Assembly (NCBI GenBank): GCA_020853775.1
Contig: JADYYH010000041.1
Coordinates: 1 to 40,983, forward strand
From: Nitrospira sp.
GTDB taxonomy: Bacteria; Nitrospirota; Nitrospiria; Nitrospirales; Nitrospiraceae
DNA length: 40,983 nt
Direction of reading: 5' to 3'
The notes beneath the pieces were generated by a model that was given only the letters and a program-made list of their open reading frames with translations, was not told the origin of the DNA and ran no database searches. Within the stretch, counting starts at the first letter, position 1; each line of letters opens with the position of its first letter. The position numbers were made by a program, and so were the translations under genes. Below, in pieces: positions 874-24,754 of this stretch.

Positions 874-1470
874 CTATTTGAGTTCGAATAAAATCAGCGC
901 CAGCAACGGCGGCAACATTCCGGCGATCACCAGCCACTTTCCCCGGCGGGCCAGCCCATATTTGCCCCGCAGCACCAGGAGTCCTGTGAGGCTCAGGATA
1001 ATCAGGACGAGCGCAAACACGTCCGACGCCCATTTCCAGCCTTTGAGCCGATTCAGGTGCAAGGCATTCACCTGATACAAGACGGGCCGTCGTGACACCT
1101 TTTCGTAGGTGCCATGTCCTGTCGCCAAATTGAGATGCAGAGAGGCGTTGTCATAGTAGATCTTCACTTGATCAGGCGTCGGGAAATCGTAGACTTTATA
1201 GGCCTCCTCCTCCACGAGCTTCCCAAAATCTGCAATCGTCTCTCGGGTGATCTCGTTTTTTGCATAGGCCTGCGTGAGCGTGACGGCCTGCTTGGAGATC
1301 ACAAAGTCCGGGTTCCAATCGCTGATATGATTGAGCGCGATCCCCGACAGGCAATAGGCGAGGATCAAGGAGGCGCAGACATAGCCGATATCCCGGTGCG
1401 TCGCGATGTTGAGCCGCACAAGAACGTCTCTGTCGGGCCAGCGCAGAAGGGTTCTGGTTCGTGCCTGCAT
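874..1470 (-). CDS. PepSY-type transmembrane protein
   Basis: The 198-residue inner-membrane protein has one predicted helix near residues 27-48 and two more at the C-terminus (about 148-198), with a periplasmic-type domain between them. This matches the small PepSY-associated TM proteins. Histidines at the ends of helix 1 (H25, H48) and one before helix 2 could bind haem; that is inference. Larger PepSY-TM proteins (PiuB, FoxB, FsrB types) reduce iron in siderophores at the inner membrane, which fits the neighbours: a TonB receptor and secreted chelatases. Its ATG overlaps the stop of the preceding chelatase gene (TGATG), so the two are probably translated together. Confidence 0.72.
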   Translation of the reverse strand: MQARTRTLLRWPDRDVLVRLNIATHRDIGYVCASLILAYCLSGIALNHISDWNPDFVISKQAVTLTQAYAKNEITRETIADFGKLVEEEAYKVYDFPTPDQVKIYYDNASLHLNLATGHGTYEKVSRRPVLYQVNALHLNRLKGWKWASDVFALVLIILSLTGLLVLRGKYGLARRGKWLVIAGMLPPLLALILFELK

Positions 1471-2399
1471 CAGTTGGCCTTGGACGCGTGCGATTGAATC
1501 TTTCGCACATAGTCATCGGTCACAGAGATGACCCAGAGCTCGACATTCGGATCGGGCAGAATGGAGTCCGGTTTGTAGAGGACGCGGGTTCTGTTGTCGG
1601 CCACCTTGGCGATTCCGTCGCCGATAATCTTGATTTGAAACTGTTCGTCGTGCGCGACGAGGACGGGGAGCACGAGGGCGGTCTGTGCGCTCTTGAGGAC
1701 GGTATTGATCGCCGCGGTCGTTTCTTCCGGTTTGTAGTTTGCAATGTGGCCGCACCAGCCATAGGCGTACTCGGCAATTCCGGTGTGCTGCCTGACGTAG
1801 CCGGCGACTTTCCCGAACAGGTCAACCCATTCCTTGTCGTAGGTCTCATCGCCATATCCAATCAACACCAAGCCTTCATGCGCCGGATCGTGCGACAGTG
1901 CGGTGACGCGCCGCAGCAGATTCTTCTGGAGCATATCCGTAAAGTCGAGCGGCGGCGTGATGTGGGTTTGCGCGCGCGGAGTATAGCGCTCGATTTTTTC
2001 GATCTTGAGTTGTTGCATCGAATGTGGATCTTCCTTCAACCCCACGATGGTGGGAATATCGTCGAAGGTGTGAGGACTGACGGTGAGGAAGACCGGCACG
2101 AGAATAACATCGGTAAAGCCCTCGCGGTCGAACTCTTTCATGCGTGTCGCGATAGAAGGCTCGGTGTATTCCATGAAGGCCGTTTTCAATCCTTTAACGG
2201 TTGGGTTGCGGAGTATCGATGGGGCGACATGCGCTTCGAGCTGCAAGAGCCCGTTTCTCCAGGTCTCCGAGCGAGACCCATGGTTGACCAGCAAGACGCC
2301 GATCTTTCTGCCTACGTCCTGCGGTGCGGCGTGAGCCGGATTCGTTGGAGAAAAAAACGTCCCTGTGAGAGCCACCAGTGCGATGAGTGCGTAGTACAT
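1470..2399 (-). CDS. secreted CbiX/CbiK-type tetrapyrrole chelatase
   Basis: The 309-residue protein has a Sec signal peptide (about residues 1-24, ending AHA) followed by two chelatase-fold lobes. The first lobe has NHGSRS (H40) and PHTFDDIP (H110), the pair of histidines that bind metal in CbiX/CbiK sirohydrochlorin cobaltochelatases. In the second lobe the HG motif has become GYGDET. Most CbiX enzymes are cytoplasmic, while a periplasmic CbiK (CbiK-P) is known in Desulfovibrio and has been proposed to serve haem or iron transport. The ATG at 2399 was chosen because GGAGG lies six bases upstream and it begins the signal peptide; an upstream in-frame ATG would add a non-signal extension. It follows the receptor gene, and the true substrate metal and tetrapyrrole are unknown. 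Confidence 0.8.
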
Positions 2400-2467
2400 G
2401 TGCCACCTCCGTTGTGTTATGTGTGGGGGCGCGTGCGGTCCGGACCCCATGCGCCCCCGAGCTCTCA

Positions 2468-4534
2468 TTACAGTGTCATCCGCATGCCGACGTAATAGAG
2501 TTGTTGTCCTTCCGGAGGCGGGACGCCTCCGACTTGCACGCGCGCCTTGGTGATGTTGTCGGCGCCGATGTAGAGATCCATGCCGTTGGCCAGTGTCTTG
2601 GCCAGCCGCATATCGAGCTGCACATTGGCCGGCGCGAGCTCGTTTTGATTGCGGTCGATGCGTCCGTTGTTATTCGTGTCGGTGAATCCGAAGGAGGAGA
2701 AGTAGCGAAGCCTGGTGGTGTAGGTCCATCCGTCGTACTCAATGTTGGCGCGGGTTTTCCATGTATGGCGCGACCGGCCGAATAGATATTCGTCTGTGGT
2801 GTGGTCTCGCGCATCGACATACATGTAGCCGGTTTCGAGGTAGAGCCAGGAGAGCGGTCTGATGCCTGCCTCAAGTTCAAAGCCTTGGCTTCGTGTGACC
2901 GCGGTGTTGAATGGTTTTTGACAGAAATTCTGCGCGACGCCCAGACCGGCGGCTTCCGCTGCCGAGCAGGTTCCGTTGATGAATTGGATCAGGTTGTTGA
3001 CGTCATGTCTGAATACGGAGGCGCCGATCTTGGCACGCTCAAAATAGTATTCAACGTTGGCGGTGTAGCTCGTCGATTTCTCGGGCGCGAGGTTGGGATT
3101 GCCGACGATGCCGAAGAACCCGCCTTCGACAAACGAGGCGCCGAGTTCGGATAAACTGGGGGATCGGAATCCTTTGGTATAGGAGAATCGGCCGCGAAAA
3201 TTGCCGGGCTTAAGAAGCAGTGTGGCTTGCGGGCTCCAGGCTCCGCCGGCTTTGCTGTTGGTGGTATAGCGGCTGCCCAGGACGATGTCCACCCATGGCA
3301 GCATGGCAATTTCATCTTGGAGCCAGCCTGCCGATTCCGTGAGGCGCTTGACCGCCGAGGAAGACGCGAAGTTCAATCCTTCGATCGACCGGATGTCGTG
3401 CTCCCCGCCGAGCGTCAGCAAGTGATGTTGATCGAGTTGCCGAGTGTATTGGAACTGAGGCTCCCAGAGGGTCTGGGTAAATTTCGACACCCGGGTTTGC
3501 GCGCCGGTGCCCAGGGCATTGGTGCGCGATTCATTCTGGAAGCTTTGGTAGTGCCCCCAGATGCTCAGGGTCGAGACCGCATCGGGGCTCCAATCCATCC
3601 GGGCGACTGTCTGATTGCGCTCGTTGTTGCTGGTGGCCTGGGTTCGTGTGGACGCGGCGGTGGTCCCTCCGAGGCTTACCCGATCCTGATCGGTGTATTT
3701 ATTGTAGAGCGAAAATTTTGCGGAGTTCGAGAACGCGTAATCGAAATTAGCGCTGATATTCTTCGTCGAGTAGCGCGGCTCGCCGTTCGTCACCGGCGTG
3801 CTGGGAATGTAATCGACGCCATCCGATTTGGAAACCCCGGCTGCGATGTATCCGCCGAACTTGCCGTCGGCGCTGCGGAACTCCGGAGCGGCAAAGGAGG
3901 TGACGGTGTTGTAGCGGCCGTATTGTCCGGTGATGGTGCCGCCCAGCGTTTTTGTGGCCCGTTTGGTGCGGATGTTGATGACGCCTCCGATGGCGTCGCT
4001 GCCATATTGAACGGCGGCGGCTCCTTTGACGACTTCGATCGATTCGACGTCGGGGGACGCCAGCAGATCTTCGGTAAACTGCCCGCCTTCGGTCGAGCCG
4101 ATCAATTCCTGTCCGTTGACAAGAAACAGCGTGTGGATGCTCTCCAAGCCCTGGATCTGAAACTGTTGAAAGCGTCCTCCCGTCCGGCGAAACTCAATGG
4201 CTGGCACGTCTTGCAGCACCTGGCGAAGATTGGTTGCGCCGGCCTGCTCGATCATTTTTGAGGTAATGCGTTCGATTTCAACGGGCGAGTCCTTTTGCGC
4301 ATGCGGGGTCCAGGTTCCGGTAATGACGATATCGTCGACGTGGAGACCTTTCTGGGGAGCGGCCGCCGGTGTGCCTGCCTCGTCCGGAGCTTTCGGCGGT
4401 ACGTCAGGCACGGTCGCCGCGGTGTCGTCGGCCGCCTGGGTGGCGAACGGGGTCATCGCGCACAAGGCTGTGATGGCCAGCATGGCGAGCGCCGTCCTAG
4501 AGGAGAGTCGAAAACCGGTCCTATGCATAGTCAT
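2468..4534 (-). CDS. TonB-dependent outer membrane receptor
   Basis: The 688-residue protein has a signal peptide (1-35), a TonB-box-like stretch DDIVITG (67-73), a plug domain (about 75-190, including the conserved [21 protein letters not shown] region) and a 22-strand-type barrel to the C-terminus, which ends in Leu rather than the usual aromatic residue. A loop near residue 619 reads [12 protein letters not shown], a DxNxNGxID calcium-binding-like pattern. AAGGA lies eight bases before the ATG. The substrate cannot be read from sequence. Neighbouring secreted chelatases and a PepSY protein favour haem, corrinoid or another iron chelate over a sugar. BtuB, FepA/CirA or haem-receptor type are all possible. 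Confidence 0.9.
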
Positions 4535-4576: not shown

Positions 4577-6268
4577 CTAGGGTCTTGCCATGCGTTGTTG
4601 TTCCGCGTCACGCGGGATCAATTCGGCGGTGAGTCGCCGAACACCGTCTTCCAGCCAGCGAGTCAAGACGGGATCGACCAACCCTTTCTCGTTCATCTCG
4701 TAGGTCAGTCCTTTCAGCATGGTTTTGTAGGGACCGGATCCGTACAGCCGGTTGGCGACGACGAGGACCCGCCCGTTTTTCCCCGCGGCTTCGATCGCGG
4801 CGCGCGCCGTCGCAACGGCCTGTTCGCGCTCTTTGGGCCAGTCCTCCCGGACGGTCAGCGCTTTTACGGCCTTAAGCTTGGCGCAGTGAAGATCCTGCCG
4901 AAGTCGTTCGATGTTCTGATTCATGACCGCCAGCCATTTGTCGTTCCCCTCGTCGGTGCCTTCTCCATGTGCGATGAGCAAGACGGTTTCATTGGCGGGG
5001 TCTTGGCTCATTTCGGCGATGCGTTTGTGGAGGACCTGGGTGATCTCCGGGTTCTGCTCATACCCGCCGAACGTGGAGAAGAGCGCCGCCGTTCTGACTT
5101 GAGGCGGAGCCTCGGCCGCATGGTCGTGTCCGCCCCCATGGCCAAGCTCAGCGGTATCCTCAGACAGGCCGAGGATATAGTCCGTGAGCGATTTCATATG
5201 ATGATCCAGGGCGTACATCCGTACGAAGACGATCCGCCTGATTCCCTGCCGCTCGAGGCGGGAGACTGCGTCCTGAATGATGTACGGGTCGCCCATCCCA
5301 TAGGCCATTTCGATGGGGTATTTGGACAGGAGCGGCTGGATGGTCGATTCCACGGCGTCGTTCCACGGTTGAGTCGATCCGTGCGGCATGATCACAAGCC
5401 CCAGCGCCGCGGCTGAGAGCGGTGTTTCCCGATTCGCCGTTTTCTTCAACCACAGCAGGGCATTCGGGTGCGGAAGCAGTTCGTTCGGCTTATACACGAC
5501 CTGGGTCTGTTTAAATTGACCGCCCAGCCAACTGGTCAGGGACATGGCCGTATCAAACTTGGGGCCGATCGATACCGGCACCAGCAGGGTGCGTCCTTGC
5601 TTCGCGATTTGAGCAAGGAGGTGGGCCTTGATGTCTTTGTTCTTCTGCTCGGCATGCTCCGCGGCGCGGTCGTAATAAATGGCGGTCTCCGCATCGCGAA
5701 ACCCTTTATAGCGCTTGACGTATGCGAGCAACTTCTCGAGATCGGCTTTCAAGGCGATTGCGCTGGCTTCATCCATCGCGCCGGCACCGACGAGAATGAG
5801 GCGTTCCGATCCGGCCTGTTCGCTCAATGCCTCGACCCGATCGAGTACGATCTGGCCGATGAGGTAGTCGTGGGCCATGGCCGGCGCCCACCGGACGGGC
5901 AGCCCTCCGGTGTACGCGGGCACGAGCGGCTTGATTTTTTTGAGCAACGGGTCAGCGTCGGAGAGAAAGAGCGGGATGGTCACGATTTCGGTGGCGCCGG
6001 CTTGCTTCAGCTCCTGCGCGGCCCGTGCGAGATACTCCGCATATTCACCGTCAACGTCCGTATAGTCGCGACCGATTAATCCCAATGCGGCCGGATACGA
6101 TTTCTTAAATTCATCGACCATGGCTCTGATTTCTTGATTGCCAAGAAAGCCTCGGTCCGGAGCGACGACCAGGAAGCCGACGGTCGGAGGTGCCGCGGCA
6201 TTGACCGGCGTCCAACTTGAGCAGAGCAGTATTCCTGCGGCTATAACGGATAGGGTGCGTGTGAACAT
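4577..6268 (-). CDS. secreted tandem CbiX/CbiK-type chelatase (fused, N-terminal half degenerate)
   Basis: The 563-residue protein has a signal peptide (about 1-25) and two complete chelatase-like halves. The C-terminal half keeps the metal-ligand histidines, PHGS at 296-298 and DHH at 356-357, plus AHGEG at 434. In the N-terminal half the matching places read VAPDRG and LSDADP, so both histidines are lost. A His/Gly-rich insert GHGGGHDHAAEA lies at 376-387 inside the intact half. The start at 6268 gives the signal peptide at the N-terminus and AGGA upstream; a longer frame would overlap the TonB gene. It lies 16 bases after the TonB gene and 43 bases before the receptor gene, so it belongs to one operon. 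Role: metal or tetrapyrrole handling in the periplasm, inferred. Confidence 0.8.
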   Translation of the reverse strand: MFTRTLSVIAAGILLCSSWTPVNAAAPPTVGFLVVAPDRGFLGNQEIRAMVDEFKKSYPAALGLIGRDYTDVDGEYAEYLARAAQELKQAGATEIVTIPLFLSDADPLLKKIKPLVPAYTGGLPVRWAPAMAHDYLIGQIVLDRVEALSEQAGSERLILVGAGAMDEASAIALKADLEKLLAYVKRYKGFRDAETAIYYDRAAEHAEQKNKDIKAHLLAQIAKQGRTLLVPVSIGPKFDTAMSLTSWLGGQFKQTQVVYKPNELLPHPNALLWLKKTANRETPLSAAALGLVIMPHGSTQPWNDAVESTIQPLLSKYPIEMAYGMGDPYIIQDAVSRLERQGIRRIVFVRMYALDHHMKSLTDYILGLSEDTAELGHGGGHDHAAEAPPQVRTAALFSTFGGYEQNPEITQVLHKRIAEMSQDPANETVLLIAHGEGTDEGNDKWLAVMNQNIERLRQDLHCAKLKAVKALTVREDWPKEREQAVATARAAIEAAGKNGRVLVVANRLYGSGPYKTMLKGLTYEMNEKGLVDPVLTRWLEDGVRRLTAELIPRDAEQQRMARP

Positions 6269-6284: not shown

Positions 6285-7460
6285 TCAGCGGTCCAGGTGG
6301 TAGATAACGGGAATAAACACCTCAATGTGGGATTGCCCGAGCTCCTGTTGGAAATGGATGGGGGTGGCCCGGTGCATGAGGTTCAGTGCGTCTTGATCCA
6401 GAGAGGCAAAGCCGGAGCTTTCAATCACGACCGCACTAAGTAACCGGCCGTCGGGTCCGATCGTGGCCTGCACGACGACTTTGCCTTCCCATCCCTGCAT
6501 GGCTGCGAGACGCGGATAGGCTTGGAAACTTTTTATTCTTCGCTTGAGCAGATCAGTCAGCCAGCCAAAGTCCGATCCAGCGGAAATTGTTCGGGTGATG
6601 GCTGGATGGCCCATGGCCACGACGGCACGCGGTGCGTCGGGATCGCCGGGATCTCTTGCCTCTCCTGCATGGGCAGAGAATATAGACGCCTCGGTTTCCG
6701 AGCCGCGGTGTGCGGCGTCCGCGGAAGGTGAATCTGTCTCTACCGCGGCCCTGTCAGCGTCCTGAGGCGAAGCCGATGCTTGTCCAGAATGGGTGGGGGC
6801 GCTGTCGGTAGGCTCCATCGATTGCCTCTGGACCTGCGCGGTCGAGCGTTCCTGTCGCTCGGTGGCGACTTCTTGACGGGTAGCGAGTGTAGATACAGCG
6901 TGTGTGGTTGTGGGCACGAACGAACGTTCAATCATTTGGGGCAGAGGCTGAGGACTAAGAGCAGGAGATTCATTCGCCGCCGGACTGTTCTCAATGCGCT
7001 GTTCAATTGGTTGAGAGGGGGTGACTGGAGTTTTGGTGCGGACGGTCTCTGGGGACAGAGTGTTTTGCGTGACTCGAGTGACAGGAGTGACCCGGGTCAG
7101 GGTCTGCTGGATGACTGAGGACTGCCTGTTGGAAGGTGATTCGACGGGTTGCGTGTTCGATGAGGCGGGTTCTCGCTGCGGATGTGCTGCTGCTGGTGCT
7201 GGTGCTGGTGCGGCCTGCGGCGCACCAGCAGTGTTCTTGCGGGCAGAGGGCGTATCGGCGACATTCGAAGATTCATGGAGGAGAAGCTCCATGCGGTATG
7301 TCGGAGGAGGGAGTTGAGGCAAATCACGAAGGAGGCTGGCGGCTGTTGCGACGGCCAGAGCATGTAGGCACAAGGATATTCCCCAGGCTGAAGCCCGCCA
7401 GCGCGGCCGCTCGTCCGGAGCATTGTTTGCGAGTAGCTGATGGAGATCGGTAAAGGGCAA
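6285..7460 (-). CDS. TonB-family energy transducer of the chelatase/receptor locus
   Basis: The 391-residue protein has one N-terminal helix (about residues 25-47), a long Pro/Thr/Ser/Gln-rich periplasmic spacer, and a C-terminal TonB domain (about 300-391) with the YP motif followed by GKVVVQATIGPDG. It transmits proton-motive force from ExbBD to an outer-membrane receptor, presumably the one two genes downstream. The only usable start is a TTG at 7460, with GGAG eight bases upstream; an in-frame stop lies 15 bases before it and the first ATG is beyond the membrane helix. A Fur-like promoter lies immediately upstream. It is paralogous to the second TonB at 19066-20010 and has no ExbBD next to it. 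Confidence 0.87.
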   Translation of the reverse strand: MPFTDLHQLLANNAPDERPRWRASAWGISLCLHALAVATAASLLRDLPQLPPPTYRMELLLHESSNVADTPSARKNTAGAPQAAPAPAPAAAHPQREPASSNTQPVESPSNRQSSVIQQTLTRVTPVTRVTQNTLSPETVRTKTPVTPSQPIEQRIENSPAANESPALSPQPLPQMIERSFVPTTTHAVSTLATRQEVATERQERSTAQVQRQSMEPTDSAPTHSGQASASPQDADRAAVETDSPSADAAHRGSETEASIFSAHAGEARDPGDPDAPRAVVAMGHPAITRTISAGSDFGWLTDLLKRRIKSFQAYPRLAAMQGWEGKVVVQATIGPDGRLLSAVVIESSGFASLDQDALNLMHRATPIHFQQELGQSHIEVFIPVIYHLDR

Positions 7461-7609: not shown

Positions 7610-8785
7610 CTATTGGCCGGGTGCGCGCAACGCGGAGGTGACAGGAAGACGGGCGGCGCGAAGCGCCGGGGGAATCCCGCCAAGCAGGCTGATCCCAAGC
7701 GCAAAGGCCAGGGTGATGAGTATGGAGACTGGAGTCAGGGTCAGGCGAAACGCCAATTCCGAAAATGTGCTGAAGTTCATAGTTGAGAGTGTGACGAACT
7801 GCAATGCCGTCCCGCCGCCGATCGCCAGCAATCCGGACAGGGCTCCGATCAGCAAGGACTCGCAGAGAAACGAGGCGAGGATGGCCGCGGAGGAAAAGCC
7901 CAACGCGCGGAGCATGCCGATTTCCCTGGTCCGGGACGCCACAGCCCCGTACATCGTCATCGTGCCGCCCAGAATCGCTCCAAAGGCGAAGATGCCGGTG
8001 AAGGTCAATCCGAGGAGCCGGATAAACGTGGCCATGGTGATGGATTTCTCGCGGTAATAATCCCGCTCCCGTTTCACCTGGAGCAGCAGCCGCGTGTCTG
8101 TTCCAATGGCTTCATCAAGCTGTTGGAATGCGGTGGGATGAGCGAGGTGAACCGTCAGCGACGAATAGGAATCACGCCCGTACGCGGCCATCAGTTGATC
8201 GACATCGCCCCAGATCTCGGAATCGAATGCCGTGCCCTGCGCGTCAAACACCCCGACGACCTGCCACTCGCGTTTGCCGATCCGCAGATGCGCGCCGAAT
8301 CCACCCGGAAGAAACCGCTTCGCAATCTGCGCGCCGATCACGATTTCAGTGGTGCCGCGCTGCCATAGGTGTCCCTGTGTCAGTGTGGCCTGCGGACGCA
8401 TCGCGAAGGTGTTTGGGTGCGTCCCCCGGACCACGACGTTGGCGGGACTTTCGGCGCCGGCTTTTTTGAGACTGATCAAGACGACCAATTCTGGAATGGC
8501 CAGAGGCTCTCCGGCGGAGGTCTGCGCGATGCCGGCGAGTGTCTTTATGATATGCGCTTGATCGCGATAGATTCCGCTGGCGATTTCGGTGGTGGCTCCT
8601 TTTCTCAAGAGCAGGATATTATCCGTCGAGCCGCTTTCGATCAGGGCGCGATTCAACCCATTCCCCAGCATAAGGACCGCCAGGAGCACCAGGCTGACCA
8701 AGGCCAATCCGGCGACGGTCAGCACGTTGGTGCTGCTGCGCACCCAGACGTTTCGCACACTATAGCTCCAGAGCAATTTCATCAT
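7610..8785 (-). CDS. ABC transporter permease, FtsX/MacB type (second of pair)
   Basis: The 391-residue permease has one N-terminal helix (about 20-42), a large periplasmic domain and three C-terminal helices (about 270-385), the four-helix FtsX/MacB layout. The conserved cytoplasmic-loop motif SRTREIGMLRALGF follows the second helix. Two ATG codons lie in tandem at 8785 and 8782, with no strong RBS. It sits nine bases after the preceding permease gene and is the last gene of the export operon. A heterodimeric permease pair with one ATPase is typical of LolCDE- and MacAB-like systems that work on lipoproteins, peptides or small molecules from the periplasmic side. The substrate is unknown. 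Confidence 0.85.
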   Translation of the reverse strand: MMKLLWSYSVRNVWVRSSTNVLTVAGLALVSLVLLAVLMLGNGLNRALIESGSTDNILLLRKGATTEIASGIYRDQAHIIKTLAGIAQTSAGEPLAIPELVVLISLKKAGAESPANVVVRGTHPNTFAMRPQATLTQGHLWQRGTTEIVIGAQIAKRFLPGGFGAHLRIGKREWQVVGVFDAQGTAFDSEIWGDVDQLMAAYGRDSYSSLTVHLAHPTAFQQLDEAIGTDTRLLLQVKRERDYYREKSITMATFIRLLGLTFTGIFAFGAILGGTMTMYGAVASRTREIGMLRALGFSSAAILASFLCESLLIGALSGLLAIGGGTALQFVTLSTMNFSTFSELAFRLTLTPVSILITLAFALGISLLGGIPPALRAARLPVTSALRAPGQ

Positions 8786-8794
8786 CTTAAAACC

Positions 8795-9964
8795 CTATCC
8801 GACGTGGCGCAAATCATAGGCGACGTGTCGGCGCAGCACGGCTCCGATGGGAATCGCCGATGCGCAGACGGCGATTCCGAGCGTGACAGAGGCGCTCAAG
8901 AGGACTGTGCTGGGGTATAAATTCATATGCTGAAAAAAGTTTCCCAGCTTGGCTCCGACCATTTCGGCATAGAGGGCGTTGGCCGGGATCGTGAGGGCGA
9001 TGCCGAGCAACGATCCGAGCCCCGCGATCAGCAGCGCTTCACCCGTCACCAGCGCGGCGAGGTGGGAGGGCCGGAATCCCAGGGTGCGTAACACCGCCAG
9101 TTCTTTGGTCCGTTCGCGAACAGCCATCACGAGCGTGTTGGCGAGGACCAGGAGCGTGATCCCGTTCAGCGCGATCGCCAGCACTTTCAACGCGCTGATA
9201 ATGGCGCCGGACATAGCGACAAAGCCCATTTGGAAGGCCTGTTCGGTTTCGGTCCTGGTTTCTGCCATCGAATTGGCAAACTCGGCGTCGATCGCGGCCG
9301 ACAGTGTGCCCGCGCGCACGGGATCAGCCAGGCGAACGACATACCACCCAACCGTACCGGCCCGATCCGGATCGATCAGCTGGCGTCGTTCGTTCATATA
9401 ATCCCACCGCAGCAGCATCCAGGTTTCATCTGTCGTCGACGTGGCCCCTTGATAGATTCCCCGGACGACGAATTCCCAATCTCCCGGGTAGAGCGTACCT
9501 TTGAGCGCGATCACGTCGCCCACTTTCCAGCCGTAGAGCGTGGCCAGGCGGCGGCCGATCAGGCATCCCCGACGATCGCTGAGAAACGCCTGCCGTTCGT
9601 CCTCGCGCACCGAGAGTTCCGCGTGAAGATCCAGAAAAGAGGCCGGTTCTACGGCGAACTGCGGGAAGAATCCTTTGGCGTCCCGGTAGACCCCGCCGAA
9701 CCAATTGGCATAGGTAATGCCGGTGACCCCGTCGAGACCGGCAATACGGTCCCGGTAGGCGAGCGGCAGGTGGATGGAGAGCGAGGCGGCGTGGCGGGTG
9801 ATCAGCCTGTTGGGGACTGCCGCTTCGACGCCGGCATACCAGGCGCGGACGGTGGTCACAATGAGATTGAACGCGAGAATGACTGTCGCGATTCCGAGTG
9901 CCGTCATCGTCACACGGAGCAGATGCCGCCGAAGATTACGAACGATCAACGTTCCGATGGTCAT
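8795..9964 (-). CDS. ABC transporter permease, FtsX/MacB type (first of pair)
   Basis: The 389-residue permease has an N-terminal helix (about 19-42), a periplasmic MacB-type domain (about 50-260) and three C-terminal helices. Its loop motif VRERTKELAVLRTLGF is the same coupling element seen in the partner permease. The gene starts four bases after the ATPase stop and ends nine bases before the second permease, so the three are co-translated or nearly so. The two permeases are only distantly similar by eye, so a heterodimer is more likely than a recent duplication. Confidence 0.85.
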   Translation of the reverse strand: MTIGTLIVRNLRRHLLRVTMTALGIATVILAFNLIVTTVRAWYAGVEAAVPNRLITRHAASLSIHLPLAYRDRIAGLDGVTGITYANWFGGVYRDAKGFFPQFAVEPASFLDLHAELSVREDERQAFLSDRRGCLIGRRLATLYGWKVGDVIALKGTLYPGDWEFVVRGIYQGATSTTDETWMLLRWDYMNERRQLIDPDRAGTVGWYVVRLADPVRAGTLSAAIDAEFANSMAETRTETEQAFQMGFVAMSGAIISALKVLAIALNGITLLVLANTLVMAVRERTKELAVLRTLGFRPSHLAALVTGEALLIAGLGSLLGIALTIPANALYAEMVGAKLGNFFQHMNLYPSTVLLSASVTLGIAVCASAIPIGAVLRRHVAYDLRHVG

Positions 9965-9967
9965 GCC

Positions 9968-10642
9968 TCAGCTCACCGTTCCTTTGTCGAAATGAAGGAT
10001 CTCTTGGGCGTAATCGGCGGCGCGCGGATCATGGGTGACCATCAGGATCGTTTTCTTGAGTTCCAGATGCAGCCGCGTGAGTAGGGCCATGACGGCCTCG
10101 GCCGCGCTTCGATCGAGATTGCCCGTCGGTTCGTCCGCCAGGAGAATGGTGGGATCGCTGACGATGGCGCGTGCGATTCCGACGCGTTGTTCCTGGCCTC
10201 CCGAGAGCTGGCGGGGATAATGATGCAGGCGATCGCTCAAGCCGACGAGGCCGAGCGCGGCCTGAACATGCGTGGTGCGCTCTCGTTTGGCCAACGTGCT
10301 GAGCAGCAGAGGCAGCTCCACATTTTCCGCTGCCGTCAGGACGGGAATGAGATTGTAGAACTGAAATACGAAGCCGATGTGCCGCGCCCGCCATCGGGCG
10401 AGCTCTGATTCTCGTTGTTGAGACACCGTCACACCAGCCGCATGGATGGTGCCGCTCGTGGGGCGGTCCAGACCGGCGACCAGATTGAGAATCGTGGTCT
10501 TGCCCGATCCCGAAGGGCCCATGACCGCCAGGAATCGTCCTGCAGGAATCGACAAGTTGAAGTCCCGAAGAATGGGCACCTCCTGGTTTCCACGGAAATA
10601 GGATTTGGTGACGCGGCGAAACTCAATGGCCGGCTGATTCAT
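9968..10642 (-). CDS. ABC transporter ATPase, LolD/MacB type
   Basis: The 224-residue nucleotide-binding protein has all the motifs: Walker A GPSGSGKT, signature [15 protein letters not shown], Walker [13 protein letters not shown], and the H-loop in [12 protein letters not shown]. The DEPTGNLD form is characteristic of the LolD/MacB/FtsE subgroup that drives FtsX-type permeases. It sits between the adaptor (14 bases upstream) and the permease pair (3 bases downstream), completing a MacAB-like exporter with split ATPase and permease chains. It acts on the inner face of the cytoplasmic membrane. Confidence 0.92.
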
Positions 10643-10656
10643 CGGTGATACGCCTC

Positions 10657-11898
10657 CTACTGGGTGACACGGGAATGAACTCGATCGCCTGGTGCCAGCG
10701 ACGATGGCGGTGCGAGGATGACCCGATCCGCAGCGGTAAAAGCGCCATGCACCTCACGCTCTCCACCGCGTGTCGCGATCTCTTCTATCGAGATTTCCCG
10801 CACGATGTCTCCGGTGAGTGCATAGGCCACGGGTGTCCCGTTCTTCAGCACCAGCGCGCTTGCCGGAATCAGGAAGCGCGGAGGGGATGTAGTCTGCGGC
10901 CGGGAAGGCTCGTGAAAAGAAATTTTCGCACTCATTTCCGGAAGCACGTGCTCGTCAAGTTCCAGGAATCGAACTTTGGCCAGCACGGTTCCTTTGGACC
11001 GATCGGCCGTCGGCACGATCTGGTGCACGATCGCCGGGTAGTGCTTGCCCTGCATGGCGTCCAGTGTGATATCGGCTGTCTGACCTTGCGAGATCTGCGC
11101 GATCGACGATTCGGAAATGTCCGCTTCAACCGTAAGTGAGGCCATGTCTGTGATCAACACCACGGCGCCCCGTGAGCTGGCGGAGCTGGCCATGGGAGCG
11201 ACGACTTCACCGATCTCGGCAAACTTTTTGAGGACAATGCCGTCGAACGGCGCTCGGATGAGCGTGTTTTCCAGCATCACATCGGCCGCCTGCACGTCGG
11301 CTTCGGCGGCCGTGATGGTCGCCGAAGAAGACCGCACCATGGCTTCCGCCCGTCTGAGGCGATTGGCCGTCATGTCGAATTCGGCTTGCGACACAAACTG
11401 ATTGGGCAGCAAGGCCTTGGCCCGCGCATGGCTCTGCTGGGCATCCCGCAACTCGGCCTGCGCATTGGTCAAGGCCGCTTTGGCCACATCCAAGCGTGCG
11501 CGCACCTGCTGTTGGACGGCTTGGACATCATCTTGCTGAACCCGGGCAATGATCTCTCCGGCTTTGACCCGGCTCCCGACGGCAACCCCCAGATATTCAA
11601 GGCGGCCGGTGCCTTTGGATGCCACCGAGGCTTGCCGCTGCGCGACGACGTATCCACTGGCGCTCAAGAGCGACGACGGCGTGGCGATTCCGACGATCCG
11701 AACGGGAGCAGTGTCAACCTCCGGCAAGGAGGAGAATTCCGGCAGAACCCAATAGAGTCCTGCCAGGCAAACGCTACTGACGATGCTTGCGCCGACCCAT
11801 CTGATCCGGAGCCTTGATGGGGGAGGGGCTTGTGGAGATTCCTCTCGTGGCAAGGTAAGGACAGACACATCCGCATCTCGAATCGGCGGAGTGGTCAT
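10657..11898 (-). CDS. periplasmic adaptor (membrane fusion) subunit, MacA/HlyD type
   Basis: The 413-residue protein has a cytoplasmic N-terminus of about 30 residues, one membrane helix (about 33-52), a split lipoyl domain around an alpha-hairpin (about 105-195, Ala/Gln/Arg-rich heptads), and a beta-barrel and membrane-proximal domain. The conserved second lipoyl half reads NTLIRAPFDGIVLKKFAEIG. It would link the ABC permeases to an outer-membrane channel, but no TolC-type gene is present in the window. Its ATG overlaps the stop of the AraC-type regulator (ATGA), so regulator and pump are translationally coupled. AGGA lies upstream of the ATG. Confidence 0.88.
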   Translation of the reverse strand: MTTPPIRDADVSVLTLPREESPQAPPPSRLRIRWVGASIVSSVCLAGLYWVLPEFSSLPEVDTAPVRIVGIATPSSLLSASGYVVAQRQASVASKGTGRLEYLGVAVGSRVKAGEIIARVQQDDVQAVQQQVRARLDVAKAALTNAQAELRDAQQSHARAKALLPNQFVSQAEFDMTANRLRRAEAMVRSSSATITAAEADVQAADVMLENTLIRAPFDGIVLKKFAEIGEVVAPMASSASSRGAVVLITDMASLTVEADISESSIAQISQGQTADITLDAMQGKHYPAIVHQIVPTADRSKGTVLAKVRFLELDEHVLPEMSAKISFHEPSRPQTTSPPRFLIPASALVLKNGTPVAYALTGDIVREISIEEIATRGGEREVHGAFTAADRVILAPPSSLAPGDRVHSRVTQ

Positions 11899-12473
11899 GA
11901 GGGTTTCCTTGCCGGGACGGGGCGTGGTTTGGGCGTGCGCCGGCCGCGCTGTGATCGAAACTGGATCGGAGATTGGCCGGTCGCTCGTTTAAAGAAATGA
12001 CTGAATGCAAACTGATCGCAAAATCCGATGGCCGTTGCGATTTCAGCGACCCCCTTTTCCGTGGTCTGCAGCAATACGCTGGCGGTTTCAAGGCGGCGAC
12101 GTTTGAGATGCGCAGAGAACGATTCGCCCATCGTGGTGTGGAAGAGGTCAGAGCAATACTTTTCTGAATATCCGAGAAACTGCGCCAACAGTTTGAGCGT
12201 CAAACCCTTATGGAGATTCGCGGTCATAAACTCATGAATGCGCGTTGAAAGAGGTGCCTGAGAAGGGGCGGCGTTCTCGTTTCCAGAATTGAGGACATGT
12301 CCCAGGTTGAACAGGGCGCTGGCCACCGCCAGGAGCTCCCGTTCCGATTTCACTCGGGCCAGTCGATCGGCCCATTGCGGGGCATAGCGGCTCAGTTCTG
12401 CGACGAGCGTGCGAATGCGTCCGGCGAATAGGGGTGATGGTGCCGACTTCGTCATCCGTGAAGGAAATCCCAT
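11895..12473 (-). CDS. AraC-family transcriptional regulator
   Basis: The C-terminal half has the two helix-turn-helix motifs of AraC/XylS regulators: LTLKLLAQFLGYSEKYCSDLF, then GVAEIATAIGFCDQFAFSHFFK followed by TGQSP. The N-terminal part lacks a recognisable cupin arm and is helical. The start is uncertain. The ATG at 12473 has AGG five bases upstream; another ATG is at 12455; the frame stays open to a TTG at 12596 without a ribosome site. An 18-bp perfect palindrome at 12566-12583 would sit upstream of the chosen start, as expected for an operator. The stop overlaps the start of the efflux adaptor, so it probably controls that operon. Confidence 0.8.
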   Translation of the reverse strand: MGFPSRMTKSAPSPLFAGRIRTLVAELSRYAPQWADRLARVKSERELLAVASALFNLGHVLNSGNENAAPSQAPLSTRIHEFMTANLHKGLTLKLLAQFLGYSEKYCSDLFHTTMGESFSAHLKRRRLETASVLLQTTEKGVAEIATAIGFCDQFAFSHFFKRATGQSPIQFRSQRGRRTPKPRPVPARKPS

Positions 12474-12565
12474 TCCATTGCTGCCTGTCAGCGAGATGAC
12501 GCCGACAGGACGAATATAATGAGGCTCTGTGCTATCGGGATCAGGACTCAGGTCCTCTGGTCTTC

Positions 12566-12583
12566 CCACACGAGCTCGTGTGG
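12566..12583. promoter_or_regulatory. 18-bp perfect palindrome before the AraC-type gene
   Basis: CCACACGAGCTCGTGTGG is perfectly self-complementary. It lies 20 bases after the stop of the Com-like gene and about 90 bases before the preferred AraC start. Two readings are possible: an operator for the regulator, or a hairpin between the two genes. No T-run follows on the minus strand, which argues against a normal terminator. Confidence 0.5.
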
Positions 12584-12602
12584 CGTAGTTGAACAAACTT
12601 GA

Positions 12603-13833: not shown

Positions 13834-14352
13834 TCATGACTCTTCCCCTCGTTTCCCGGCCATCAACGGTTGCTTCAAAATCCACATTTCGTAGAGCGGG
13901 ATAGCCATCATCGCGAGAAAGCTGCCCATCATTAGGGTGTCCCCCGCCAGCATGGTGATTACAAAAATAGGCGAGATGTAGCTAATGAGCCAAGGAGATA
14001 TCAAATCCAGCGCTACGCCTCCGAACGAAAGCCATGTCAGCCAAACTTGTGTGGCGTGGCTGGCCTGTGTGAGGTAGAGGACGTGCACAAGGATCATGAA
14101 TACCACTGGCATGGTAAACAAATGAAAGTGCGTGACCTCGGCCAACTCCCGAAATGACATCGGCTCACCGAAAGTCGCATCAGAGCCGCGATAGTGATCA
14201 GCAATTCCTTGTGGACTTAAGCTGGTCATGCTGTGCGCCCAGAAGAAGGAGAAGAGAAAACCTGCCAGCATCAAGAATAAGAACTGTGTGTACAGCAATC
14301 TGATGTGGCGATCCGAGTCACGCAGACGGAATCGAGCATTAAAATTTCGCAT
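13834..14352 (-). CDS. four-helix inner-membrane protein of the flavoprotein operon
   Basis: The 172-residue protein has helices at about 18-42, 74-95, 102-122 and 126-152. Helix 1 ends WAHSM and helix 2 contains THFHLF and ILVHVLY, so histidines lie on both helices near the membrane faces, as would suit haem binding. That is inference, and no CxxCH is present. I do not recognise a named family. It starts 23 bases after the FMN-binding protein gene and closes the operon before a strong hairpin. In known flavinylated systems a membrane electron carrier passes electrons from quinol or NADH to the periplasmic FMN protein; this protein is the candidate here. Confidence 0.7.
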   Translation of the reverse strand: MRNFNARFRLRDSDRHIRLLYTQFLFLMLAGFLFSFFWAHSMTSLSPQGIADHYRGSDATFGEPMSFRELAEVTHFHLFTMPVVFMILVHVLYLTQASHATQVWLTWLSFGGVALDLISPWLISYISPIFVITMLAGDTLMMGSFLAMMAIPLYEMWILKQPLMAGKRGEES

Positions 14353-14375
14353 GCCTCTGCAGTGTCCCGACGGCC

Positions 14376-15062
14376 TTAGTTGCCGAACAGGGTCCCCAAG
14401 ATTCCTCTCTCAGCCTTTTGCACGGCGACCGCGTCGCTTCCTAAGCCAGCCGGTTTCAAGTAGAGCTCGTCCACTAGCACCAGCACGCGTTTGACGCCGG
14501 CACTCATTGAACGGACCGACATGGTGGCCCCGCTGATGTTGATAATGTCTTTGTTGATCCGAATAGGATCTGAGACGCTTTTGCCGTCATATTGGGAGTT
14601 GAACCGCTTTTTCCCCACCTCGCTACCCTTGGCATCGCGAAATACCAGCAGCTCGACGTCCGTACAATTTCCCTTGGCATCGACTCCGACCATATAGGTC
14701 ATTGGCTTATATTTGCCGATGGTGTTGTGGATCATCGCATAACCATCCACCTTGTCTCCAGTCTCGCCGATATAAAGGTCGAACGAATCTTCCGGGAATT
14801 TCCACCCAATGCGTTGTTCGATCAGCTCCTTTTTGTCCTGTGACAGGCGGACCAGTTCTTTCCGCACACGTTGAGATTTCGGAAGGATCGTCTTCACGGC
14901 CTCTTCTTCGGACATGAATTCTTCGTACTTGAAGTCTTCGTCCTTTAAGTACCGGCGCAGTTCATTATCCCAAACTTTCTCCGTTGCCAATGCTGGCAGG
15001 GATGAGGTCATCAGCAGCACGACTGCGGTTAAGGTGCGGTACGCACTCAATGTACTGATCAT
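14376..15062 (-). CDS. periplasmic FMN-binding domain protein (ApbE substrate)
   Basis: The 228-residue protein has a signal peptide (1-26, ending ALA), a helical charged region (about 30-90) and an FMN-binding domain (about 105-200). The covalent-flavin motif is visible: SGAT at 177-180 followed by M-S, with T180 as the expected FMN attachment residue, as in RnfG, NqrC and related extracytoplasmic carriers. ApbE, the enzyme that attaches FMN, is encoded divergently at 17672. The ATG has AAGGAG five bases upstream and overlaps the stop of the lipoprotein gene (ATGA). Likely a one- or two-electron carrier in the envelope; Fur-type control of the operon suggests a link to iron reduction. Confidence 0.85.
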   Translation of the reverse strand: MISTLSAYRTLTAVVLLMTSSLPALATEKVWDNELRRYLKDEDFKYEEFMSEEEAVKTILPKSQRVRKELVRLSQDKKELIEQRIGWKFPEDSFDLYIGETGDKVDGYAMIHNTIGKYKPMTYMVGVDAKGNCTDVELLVFRDAKGSEVGKKRFNSQYDGKSVSDPIRINKDIINISGATMSVRSMSAGVKRVLVLVDELYLKPAGLGSDAVAVQKAERGILGTLFGN

Positions 15063-15505
15063 CCATGCTCCTTCAATTTGGTGTCCAACCGGTTTTGTAT
15101 GTCGGTCATGATCTCAGCCGAAGGTTGGGTGTCGGTCCAGCCGAACAGGCGCGAGCCCCCACGAAATGCCCACCGCTGTCGCTCCTCGATAAAGCCGATT
15201 TTCGTGACGTCGTCCAGGCGTGTGACTACTAGGGAAATCCGCGACCGATCTTTGCTGTCCCCCAAGTCTCGCTGAAGGGCACCAAAGGTCCGTCCCGGCA
15301 TTGGTATTTCAAGCCATGCGGTGTCGATCACGCCTGATGCTTTATCCTGCCGCGTGATTGCGCGATCTTTGACTGCATCTAGCGCGGCTTCCCAGGAATG
15401 GTCGTAACTGCAAACGGCAAATCGTTGCTGCATCCCGCCCAGCGAGGTGCAGGCGGTGAGGAGGGCGACAAGAAGGAAGCTGAGGGGGCGGTAGTGTCGT
15501 GCCAT
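15059..15505 (-). CDS. small lipoprotein of the flavoprotein operon
   Basis: The 148-residue protein has a lipoprotein signal with lipobox LTAC at residues 16-19 (C19 lipidated). The mature part alternates short strands and helices (SWEAALDAVKD, GVIDTAWLEI, SRISLVVTRLDDVTKIGF). This somewhat recalls BamC-type helix-grip domains, but I cannot assign a family. No good ribosome site precedes the ATG at 15505, and a 34-bp perfect palindrome lies 21 bases upstream, so expression may be lower than that of the porin. The stop overlaps the start of the FMN-binding protein gene. Confidence 0.72.
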   Translation of the reverse strand: MARHYRPLSFLLVALLTACTSLGGMQQRFAVCSYDHSWEAALDAVKDRAITRQDKASGVIDTAWLEIPMPGRTFGALQRDLGDSKDRSRISLVVTRLDDVTKIGFIEERQRWAFRGGSRLFGWTDTQPSAEIMTDIQNRLDTKLKEHG

Positions 15506-15526
15506 ATCACATCAGTATGGTGGCGC

Positions 15527-15560
15527 CGTCCAGACCTTCCTGATCAGGAAGGTCTGGACG
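15527..15560 (-). terminator. 34-bp perfect palindrome inside the operon (attenuator or terminator)
   Basis: The whole 34 bases are self-complementary, with CGTCCAGACCTTCC as the left arm and TGATCA as the centre. It lies eight bases after the porin stop and 21 bases before the lipoprotein ATG. No T-run follows. It may protect the 3' end of the porin message or partly stop transcription, so that porin outweighs the downstream products. Confidence 0.6.
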
Positions 15561-15568
15561 GGCGATGG

Positions 15569-17017
15569 TTAGAAGTACGTGGCTGCCTGAATTAAGAATC
15601 CGTTTCCATTCAACGGGCTGCCTGCATTGCCGAGGTCTCCGGCGGCTACCAGTCCCTTTGCATCCTGCTGAGTATTAAATTGCCAATCGAATTTGATAAC
15701 TGTGTCTTCAATCGGCCGGAAATTGAGACCGAGGGTTAGACGCTCAAGTTTTCGCTGACCACCCAAAGCATTCTGCTTCGTGCGATCGTCCGTGTCGGTA
15801 TTAACCTGCTCCCACCGAACGACTGCTGTAAACGTGGAGGCATCGGTAAAGTGACTAGGGGCCCACTTTTTCAAGAATTCCGGCATGAAATGATAATTCC
15901 CCTGAATGTAATACCCCTGCATGCCGGCCGGGCCGATACCTCTATTAGCAACGCCGGTCGCATTGTTGTTGCTGATTCTCGTCCAAGCCGATTCTCCAAT
16001 GATTTCGAACGGCCCTCTTTGTAGAGTCCAGTCCAAAGCAAACATGTCAATGTAGCCGGCTCCGACAGCGCCAGCCGCCGGTTTGTAGGCCCCATGGTAG
16101 CCTGATCCTGCGATTTCAATGCCCAGCATCGGGCTGAACGCGATACGGCCCACGACGGCCTTATTGTCATCACGATCGCGGGACACGCTGCCTCGGGCGC
16201 TTCGTATACCGAGGTCGGTGATGCCGCCCGCTGTCTGGCTCATTCCGTTGACCGCATAGACTTCATAGTCCAACTTCGAGCGTGATGAGGGATACAAGGT
16301 TCCGTATATACCGGCTCCGGCTTCGAACCAGGTGCTGGGGATTACGATGCGTGAGACCATTGGTCGATCGACGAGATCGTTCAATGGTGAGTCGTGCAGT
16401 AAGTTAAACTTGCCGACCGGCATCAGCAAAATCCCGGCGCGGAGGTTGATGGCTTCGTCGATCAAATAGTCCAATTGGGCGAACTCGATCTGTATGGAGC
16501 CGTCAGTGCCCTGCGGGGCGTTTGGTCCGCCACGTTCAATTTCAATTTCTGTTGCGAACTTGATGTGGTCGGTAATATCTGCATAGATGAAGGGTACCAA
16601 GCGCTGTTGCCCGAAGGAATTACGGCTTGGATTGTCCAAATTTTGTCGTGACAGAGAGTTGTACATGACGTCGGCATATCCGCCGACCGTCGCTTTCGGA
16701 GCACTCAAGAACGGCTTGGCGTAGATCAACTTTCCGGAGCCGGTTGAGCTAAATCCTAATGGAATCTTTTCCTCGCCCTTTCGCTCAACCCGAATGTCAG
16801 TAATCGGACCGGATGACACCGGATATTGTGGGGAGGAGGTGGCTTCAGCCTGTCCTTGTGGTGTACCGCCTTCACGCCGTTGATGTTCCTGCAGCCGCTT
16901 CTCAACTGCTTCGTCAACCAGTTTCTTGATCTCCTCCGGGGTCATGTTTTCCGCCAAAGCCGGCATCACCGGTAGACTGGCCAGAACGAGAGCCCCGAGG
17001 ATTGCCCGGATCTTCAT
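15569..17017 (-). CDS. outer-membrane porin
   Basis: The 482-residue protein has a signal peptide (about 1-22, ending ALA), then a charged helical segment (TPEEIKKLVDEAVEKRLQEHQ) like the coiled-coil periplasmic stalks of trimeric porins, a Pro/Gln linker, and a long amphipathic beta-strand region to a C-terminal aromatic (ATYF). That layout matches phosphate-selective-porin (OprO/OprP) type and related porins. The ATG at 17017 is used because GGAGG lies five bases upstream; an earlier ATG at 17029 overlaps that ribosome site. It is the second gene of the Fur-box operon, after the Com-like gene. The substrate is unknown. Confidence 0.85.
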   Translation of the reverse strand: MKIRAILGALVLASLPVMPALAENMTPEEIKKLVDEAVEKRLQEHQRREGGTPQGQAEATSSPQYPVSSGPITDIRVERKGEEKIPLGFSSTGSGKLIYAKPFLSAPKATVGGYADVMYNSLSRQNLDNPSRNSFGQQRLVPFIYADITDHIKFATEIEIERGGPNAPQGTDGSIQIEFAQLDYLIDEAINLRAGILLMPVGKFNLLHDSPLNDLVDRPMVSRIVIPSTWFEAGAGIYGTLYPSSRSKLDYEVYAVNGMSQTAGGITDLGIRSARGSVSRDRDDNKAVVGRIAFSPMLGIEIAGSGYHGAYKPAAGAVGAGYIDMFALDWTLQRGPFEIIGESAWTRISNNNATGVANRGIGPAGMQGYYIQGNYHFMPEFLKKWAPSHFTDASTFTAVVRWEQVNTDTDDRTKQNALGGQRKLERLTLGLNFRPIEDTVIKFDWQFNTQQDAKGLVAAGDLGNAGSPLNGNGFLIQAATYF

Positions 17018-17150
17018 GGGTTCCTCCATCCGCGAGTAAAGTTTTTGTTGGACTCGGGACTCAAAGGTCTCTGGTCTACCTTGAAAATCAGCATGCGAGA
17101 TTCAGGTTCGGGAGTGGTCCGGTTGGCGAGGCCTCCTTTCGTAGATCGAA

Positions 17151-17671: not shown

Positions 17672-18700
17672 GTGTCAATGAGATATCGCCTTGTGCTGTC
17701 GTGTTTGGGCTGTCTGCTGTTTTTAGCTGGATGCGTGACTACAAAGTTTGACCAGACGCCGGTTGTGGTGAAAAGAACACAGATGCAGATGGGAACGTTG
17801 GTGACGATTACATCGGTGGCATTGGATCGGCAGCATGCGCATGAGGCGGCATCGGCTGGATTTCAAGAAATTCATCGTTTAGAAGAGTTGCTCAGTACCT
17901 GGATTGCAACCAGCGAGCTCTCGCGAGTGAATGCTGCAGCGGGAAAGGTGCCCATCCGGGTCAGCGCCGACACGCTGAAGGTGCTGGAAGCCTCGCTTGA
18001 AATGGCACGAATGACGGAGGGAGGTTTTAATATTCTTGTTGGCCCTGCGGTTGAAGCCTGGAGTGTGCTCGATCGGCAGAAAGTTCCATCGGCTTTGCAA
18101 TTGGAAGCGGTGCGACCGCTCACCGATTTGCGTTCGCTGCACGTGAACGCTGAGCAGCGCACGGTTTATTTGGCTAAGCCTGGTATGCGGATGGACGTTG
18201 GTGGCATCGGCAAAGGCTTTGCCGCTGACATGGCTGTTGTTGCCATGCAAAAGGCCGGAGCCACTGCCGGAGTTGTGGCTCTCTCGGGAGATATGCGGAC
18301 CTTCGGGCAACTGCCGGGTGGCAGCAGATTTCCCTTCGGCATTCGACATCCACGTCGGGAAGAGGCAGTGCTGGCCTTCATCGATCTTCAGGACGAGGCG
18401 ATCTCAACGGCTGGTGACTATGAGCGATATTTTGAGCAAGCCGGAGTGCGTTATCACCATATTCTGGATCCGATCACCTTGCAGCCGGCGCGTGATTGTC
18501 AGAGTGTGACCGTTGTCGCTCGTGATGGGCTGATGGCTGATGGTCTGGATACCGGCATCTTCGTCATGGGACGTGAGCGAGGGTTGGCGCTAATCGAACG
18601 GTTACCGGGAGTCGGTGCGGTGATCGTGGATCGTAGCGGCGAGATTTGGATTTCTTCCTATCTGAAAGGAAGGGTGAGAATGAATGCAGCTCATGAGTGA
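17672..18700 (+). CDS. apbE: FAD:protein FMN transferase, lipoprotein form
   Basis: The 342-residue protein has a lipoprotein signal with lipobox LAGC near residues 18-21 and the ApbE fold. Typical elements are MGTLVTITSVALD, the DVGGIGKGFAADM loop, ALSGDMRTFG, and HHILDPITLQPARDC, which is the HxxDPxTG-like FAD-binding stretch with TG changed to TL. It uses FAD to attach FMN to Thr or Ser of FMN-binding domains outside the cytoplasm. The obvious client is the SGAT protein at 14376-15062. The GTG at 17672 has GGAGG seven bases upstream and is preferred to the ATG two codons later. A small lipoprotein gene overlaps its end. Confidence 0.88.
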   Translation: MSMRYRLVLSCLGCLLFLAGCVTTKFDQTPVVVKRTQMQMGTLVTITSVALDRQHAHEAASAGFQEIHRLEELLSTWIATSELSRVNAAAGKVPIRVSADTLKVLEASLEMARMTEGGFNILVGPAVEAWSVLDRQKVPSALQLEAVRPLTDLRSLHVNAEQRTVYLAKPGMRMDVGGIGKGFAADMAVVAMQKAGATAGVVALSGDMRTFGQLPGGSRFPFGIRHPRREEAVLAFIDLQDEAISTAGDYERYFEQAGVRYHHILDPITLQPARDCQSVTVVARDGLMADGLDTGIFVMGRERGLALIERLPGVGAVIVDRSGEIWISSYLKGRVRMNAAHE

Positions 18701-23674: not shown

Positions 23675-23677
23675 AGC

Positions 23678-24709: not shown

Positions 24710-24754
24710 GCGGCGTGCCTCCACGTGTGGGGACACCCCGAGGGCGTCCTAGTT

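Follow-up and report, generated by a model that had tools for sequence, protein, structure and literature searches.

Exported class II chelatases are already known in heme and iron uptake, and the closest precedents for the locus described here are FetB/IhtB, the periplasmic CbiK and HmuS. In Porphyromonas gingivalis, IhtB/FetB has been proposed to remove iron from heme (PMC10913741, PMC6460266, PMC13402209). FetB/IhtB resembles P0001, the central protein of our study, in being an exported protein of class II chelatase fold encoded with a TonB-dependent receptor, whereas it differs in being a surface lipoprotein with a single unit; P0001 is composed of two units, both with altered sites, lacks a lipobox and has a separate complete chelatase adjoining it. 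CbiK-P of Desulfovibrio vulgaris has evolved into a haem-binding protein, going by the title of Lobo et al. 2017 as cited in PMC11301274. It is an exported class II chelatase like P0001, but a single unit with a histidine pair that is missing from the N-terminal unit of P0001. To our knowledge, no TonB receptor or exporter context has been described for CbiK-P. In Bacteroidota, HmuS removes iron from heme with a reductant and needs NADH; its heme is held by a His and a Met, and HmuY and a TonB receptor operate alongside it (PMC12583661). HmuS is however a membrane bound, CobN-type class I chelatase of 1469 residues, and the genome studied here is without a CobN homologue. The sirohydrochlorin chelatases SirB, CfbA and CbiX have their fold in common with the N-terminal unit of P0001 and their metal site in common with the neighbouring protein P0002, but they are cytoplasmic biosynthetic enzymes whereas P0001 and P0002 are predicted to be exported. 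DR2241 of Deinococcus radiodurans (2jh3; Z 10.6 against the N-terminal unit) is, as P0001, a multi-domain protein with a chelatase-like part, but the extra domains of the two differ. We know of no link of DR2241 to export or to a receptor. The removal of iron from heme without heme oxygenase has been shown only recently, for the CobN-type HmuS, and as far as we know the class II chelatase route of IhtB/FetB is proposed but not settled.

The window analysed in our study is a stretch of 40,983 nucleotides and forms an entire contig (C41) of a 4.25 Mb Nitrospira genome (Table 1). The ATG of P0001 lies 16 bp downstream of the tonB stop and is preceded by a plausible ribosome site of the AAAGGACG type. 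The protein was described as secreted in an earlier note on this DNA, and an apparent signal peptide was indeed recognized by eye, with a hydrophobic segment which ends in VNAA; the homologues likewise begin with hydrophobic residues. No lipobox was seen by eye in P0001, the Cys of the signal segment being neither preceded by G, A or S nor conserved among the homologues. In our reading, which is plausible but tentative, the operon serves to acquire iron in the periplasm from heme or from some similar metallotetrapyrrole.

Table 1. Features of the P0001 locus in window coordinates (all on the minus strand).
Feature	Position	Strand	Basis or remark
PepSY-TM-like membrane protein, putative redox partner	874..1470	-	PF16357, 58 bits
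P0002, predicted exported single-unit CbiX-type chelatase, likely start Met24	1470..2468	-	
TonB-dependent outer-membrane receptor	2468..4534	-	
P0001, predicted exported two-unit class II chelatase-like protein, 563 aa	4577..6268	-	
P0001 C-terminal chelatase-like unit, residues 286-550 (end approximate)	4619..5413	-	sequence only
H434, invariant, second-lobe loop of C unit	4967..4969	-	27 homologues
His-rich insert, residues 376-387	5108..5143	-	length varies, absent in some homologues
H356/H357, second ligand His position, unconserved in family	5198..5203	-	
M325, invariant Met, aligned to ligand Glu (CfbA Glu42, SirB Glu43)	5294..5296	-	
H296, invariant, aligned to first ligand His of CfbA/SirB	5381..5383	-	27 homologues
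P0001 N-terminal chelatase-fold unit, residues 26-285, without ligand histidines	5414..6193	-	structure match and 27-homologue alignment
D38-R39-G40, invariant, loop carrying first His in chelatases	6149..6157	-	27 homologues
P0001 predicted Sec-type signal peptide, residues 1-25, MFTRTLSVIAAGILLCSSWTPVNAA	6194..6268	-	by eye
TonB	6285..7460	-	
FtsX/MacB-type permease	7610..8785	-	
FtsX/MacB-type permease	8795..9964	-	
ABC ATPase, LolD/MacB type	9968..10642	-	
HlyD/MacA-type periplasmic adaptor	10657..11898	-	
AraC-family regulator	11895..12596	-	

The two-unit organization of P0001 is evident from the comparison of its halves, whose profiles match each other over the whole length (98.4%, E 7e-15), and both half profiles also match P0002. 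An AlphaFold model built from 8 sequences was of modest quality (pLDDT 59.7) and weak in the C half, and the structure search covered residues 26-285. Within this range the best matches were SirB (5zt7; Z 16.2, rmsd 3.2 over 224 residues), ferrochelatase/CpfC (Z 15-15.6), CbiX (Z 14.0), periplasmic CbiK (2xvx/2xvz; Z 13.3) and FetB (9b86; Z 12.7, rmsd 4.0 over 222 residues). The alignments to SirB, CpfC, CbiX and CbiK span 215-240 residues at Z 13-16; unrelated folds scored at Z of about 10 and less, and periplasmic binding proteins ranked below the chelatases. The N unit is thus modelled as a two-lobed alpha/beta class II chelatase fold, and the N half also carries a Pfam CbiX match of 23.9 bits (cut-off 22). 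For the C half, the Pfam ferrochelatase match is sub-threshold, the NCBIfam nickelochelatase CfbA model matches at 3.5e-5 to 1.5e-4, below its cut-off, and the PDB profile search returned CfbA at 0.0019; these matches support a chelatase-like C unit. Of the two full chelatase units claimed in the earlier note, both units are therefore retained, the first by its fold and the second from its sequence, and the comparison with CbiK which was suggested there has come out in favor of a chelatase-like N unit.

Residue conservation was read from an alignment of 27 P0001 homologues, all from Nitrospirota. In the N unit, the position of the first ligand His (residue 37) is occupied by P, Q, S or A and never by His, the second ligand position is also without His throughout, and this unit therefore lacks the full set of two ligand His plus Glu of CbiX, SirB and CfbA in the 27 homologues. 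The replacement of the N-half histidines, noticed earlier in this one protein with the same residues as found here, therefore extends to the family (27/27 for the first ligand His), and no homologue retaining them was found. Moreover, the loop which carries the first His in chelatases has kept its own invariant motif, and N44 following it is invariant too. The dN/dS values are about 0.06-0.21 for P0001 overall and about 0.06-0.16 for the N unit, with equal purifying selection on the N and C units, which rules out the N unit as a decaying relic. A binding or carrier role, as was suggested for the dead half, fits these observations since the N unit has lost the ligand histidines and is still kept under selection.

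The C unit is also different from what was expected. SirB binds its metal with His10, Glu43 and His76, which correspond to His9, Glu42 and His75 of CfbA (PMC11301274). Two independent alignments agree in placing M325 at the ligand Glu. H357 aligns with the second ligand His and is H in many homologues; in several Nitrospira sequences position 357 is Q and residue 356 is H, in another locus (L021) and in Manganitrophus the second ligand position is Q with His absent from 356/357, and the copies of one genome (G139) have AAS at this site, with S at 357 and no His at 356/357. Hence, the two ligand His and Glu are not conserved family-wide in the C unit, the Glu being replaced by M325 and the second His being variable, and neither unit of P0001 carries a complete metal site that is conserved. 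The C half was called intact in the earlier note; this stands for the invariant H296 and for the window protein by itself, which keeps both ligand His, but not for the variable H356/H357 or for the ligand Glu. Its other invariant histidine, H434, had been overlooked; a second-lobe His is used by Pp-CbiX and CbiK (PMC4063343). The functional weight placed on the His-rich insert could not be upheld, as the insert is variable or lost among the homologues, and a metal store in this insert was ruled out as it is unconserved. The pair of H296 and M325 recalls the His/Met ligation of HmuS, which may be taken only as a parallel.

These residues bear on a different role for P0001, namely as an enzyme whose C unit would remove or insert metal with H296 and H434 facing across the cleft, the N unit holding the substrate and P0002 being a second enzyme of other specificity. 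H296 and H434 are invariant even at loci without P0002, and CfbA itself has two His pairs across its cleft with a Glu which is not strictly conserved (PMC11301274). Both ligand histidines of one lobe are however strictly conserved in CfbA enzymes (PMC11301274), whereas in P0001 the second one is lost in several homologues and the ligand Glu is a Met, and an enzymatic P0001 is considered unlikely.

In the periplasmic iron-acquisition system which we prefer, the catalytic part would belong to P0002. It gives a Pfam CbiX match of 52.8 bits and a PDB profile match to CfbA at 1e-8, and its H63, E100 and H133 represent the full His-Glu-His triad of CfbA/SirB, invariant in 5 aligned sequences and also found in Persicobacter. 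As this triad is complete, the full site sought in P0001 lies next door. By its ligand set P0002 qualifies as a CbiX/SirB/CfbA-type chelatase, and the corresponding activity is predicted for it. Its AlphaFold model (5 sequences) was poor, with a pLDDT of 52, and chelatases ranked top at Z 7-8, close to background. The homologues of P0002 in Persicobacter (Bacteroidota) are 45% identical, have lipoprotein-like starts and are found with HmuY nearby.

The gene order AraC, HlyD adaptor, ABC ATPase, FtsX, FtsX, TonB, P0001, receptor, P0002 and PepSY is kept in several Nitrospira genomes, the receptor being a different one in some of them. In the window, the top NCBIfam model of the receptor is the heme/hemoglobin receptor TIGR01785 with 148 bits against a cut-off of 317, and heme, B12 and siderophore models all remain below their cut-offs. 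No Fur box was found in the window, and the promoter/terminator scan stayed at chance level. P0001 and P0002 gave no match to CobN/HmuS (PF02514), and neither this family nor HmuY was detected in the own genome; a FeoB-sized match was also absent from it, the matches being in frames of other GTPase sizes. The operon is adjoined by genes for FMN-binding, small membrane, porin-like and ApbE-like (FMN transferase) proteins (13834-17029 and 17672-18700), possibly a periplasmic electron-supply set. Further along, fbpABC-like genes of a ferric iron ABC transporter were recognized by eye (20910-24736, minus strand), and this system could take up released iron. Siroheme or cobalamin biosynthesis was ruled out for the pair, as the proteins are exported, neither a biosynthetic gene nor an Rfam riboswitch was seen in the window, and a one-domain cytoplasmic CbiX is encoded elsewhere in the same genome (contig C112). 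The exported P0001 and this separate CbiX are in agreement with the earlier suggestion that P0001 is not a biosynthetic enzyme.

P0001 was found in 22 of 295 sampled Nitrospirota genomes (E up to 0.001; a few by short matches). P0002 was found in 10 genomes, all of which also have P0001 (hypergeometric 5e-13, with genomes treated as independent), and the remaining 12/22 genomes have P0001 alone; therefore, P0001 can work without P0002. One scan of genome contigs for P0001 gave only close Nitrospira relatives, and the search beyond Nitrospirota, which was limited to plasmids, gave only Manganitrophus, itself a member of Nitrospirota. A TonB-dependent receptor lies within about 10 kb in 18/20 P0001 loci (one by a weak match); from the receptor positions in the own genome, about 5% of its sequence is estimated to be that close to one. 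At some loci the receptor stands outside the operon, at a distance of 5-9 kb.

Among the neighbours of the homologues, sigma-factor/FecR-like genes with ExbBD-TonB, PepSY-TM and ZIP genes, a ferritin-family gene (L043) and Fur (L051) were observed. On plasmids of Ca. Manganitrophus, P0001 is followed by genes for a hypothetical protein, a sigma factor, a receptor, PepSY and a ferritin-like protein, in this order. HmuY was present in 1/20 P0001 genomes searched, where ExbB/ExbD-like genes, TonB, P0001, receptor and HmuY follow each other (L048). In two Persicobacter records, the P0002 homologue, an FMN-binding/4Fe-4S/TonB-receptor fusion and HmuY stand directly in a row. Relatives of both chelatases are thus tied to the heme carrier HmuY in two phyla. 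The fusion proteins, of about 1200 residues, join FMN-binding, membrane 4Fe-4S and TonB-dependent receptor domains (L064:10938-14609, L065:10992-14627), an unusual combination of electron transfer and outer-membrane receptor seen in two species. Variation of P0001 itself was also observed. One genome (G218) has a frame-broken copy with a fragment (L055:9300-13620) and may have a degenerating or mis-assembled gene. G139 carries three divergent copies, one with an internal stop (L044:1498-6484 and L045). Directly after P0001 copies, lipoprotein-like genes without a Pfam match occupy a position like that of HmuY in L048 (L045:6451-9348, L044:108-1328).

The heme/iron-acquisition reading is favored because the operon is conserved, P0002 occurs with P0001 in all 10 genomes that have it and a receptor is near most P0001 loci. 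The HmuY, ferritin and Fur neighbours, the full triad of P0002, the lack of CobN/HmuS in the own genome and the precedents of HmuS and IhtB/FetB also speak for it. In such a system, the TonB-dependent receptor and TonB would import heme or another metallotetrapyrrole into the periplasm, where electrons for reducing the iron would come from the PepSY membrane protein, perhaps together with the FMN-binding protein encoded nearby. P0001 may bind the tetrapyrrole in its chelatase-type cleft or clefts, where the N unit offers D38-R39-G40 and the C unit H296, M325 and H434. As a partner of P0002, it would either hold the tetrapyrrole or hand it over. P0002 would run in reverse and pull the metal out, and the MacAB-type pump could clear the empty porphyrin or excess heme. 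Against heme uptake stand the receptor scores, the single Nitrospirota P0001 locus with HmuY, the loci without P0002 or with a distant receptor, the missing Fur box and the lack of a FeoB-sized match. Moreover, Nitrospira is largely aerobic, whereas the known de-chelation is anaerobic. A more specific and rather doubtful proposal is that class II chelatases do here what the class I enzyme HmuS does in its hosts. In nitrifying Nitrospirota and related members of the phylum, and partly in Bacteroidota, P0002 in reverse and a tetrapyrrole-binding P0001 would cooperate with the receptor, a redox membrane protein and a MacAB-type pump that exports porphyrin. The generic metallochaperone of the earlier note gives way here, as the receptor, HmuY and ferritin context points to iron/heme acquisition and P0002 had escaped attention.

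The same neighbourhood could belong to siderophore uptake, in which sigma-factor/FecR-like genes, ExbBD-TonB, PepSY and Fur are common. P0001 would then bind, in the periplasm, a ferric siderophore or another non-tetrapyrrole metal chelate delivered by the receptor, its chelatase fold having turned into a solute-binding one; the metal sites are degenerate in both units, and the chelatase fold resembles periplasmic binding proteins (structure search; PMC12583661). The HmuY neighbours and the complete chelatase in the operon however point to a tetrapyrrole, and a BtuCD-type importer is absent from the operon, making this role rather improbable. Still less probable is forward metal insertion outside the cytoplasm by the P0001/P0002 pair, e.g. 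of cobalt or iron into a tetrapyrrole that is either imported or secreted, since in spite of the full CbiX/CfbA site of P0002 and the known periplasmic cobaltochelatase CbiK of Desulfovibrio (2xvz), the window holds no biosynthetic gene or Rfam riboswitch and the homologues have ferritin, Fur and HmuY as neighbours.

P0001 is better described as a double chelatase with altered sites that is paired, in an iron operon linked to a receptor, with a complete exported chelatase. No literature connecting Nitrospira with a receptor and a cobaltochelatase was found. As a complete exported chelatase and an altered relative with two units are found at one locus together with components for uptake and redox, the class II route to iron from heme can be tested with a few purified proteins. 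Nitrospira has a central part in nitrification and possesses many heme enzymes, and the outcome would show how it may obtain its iron.
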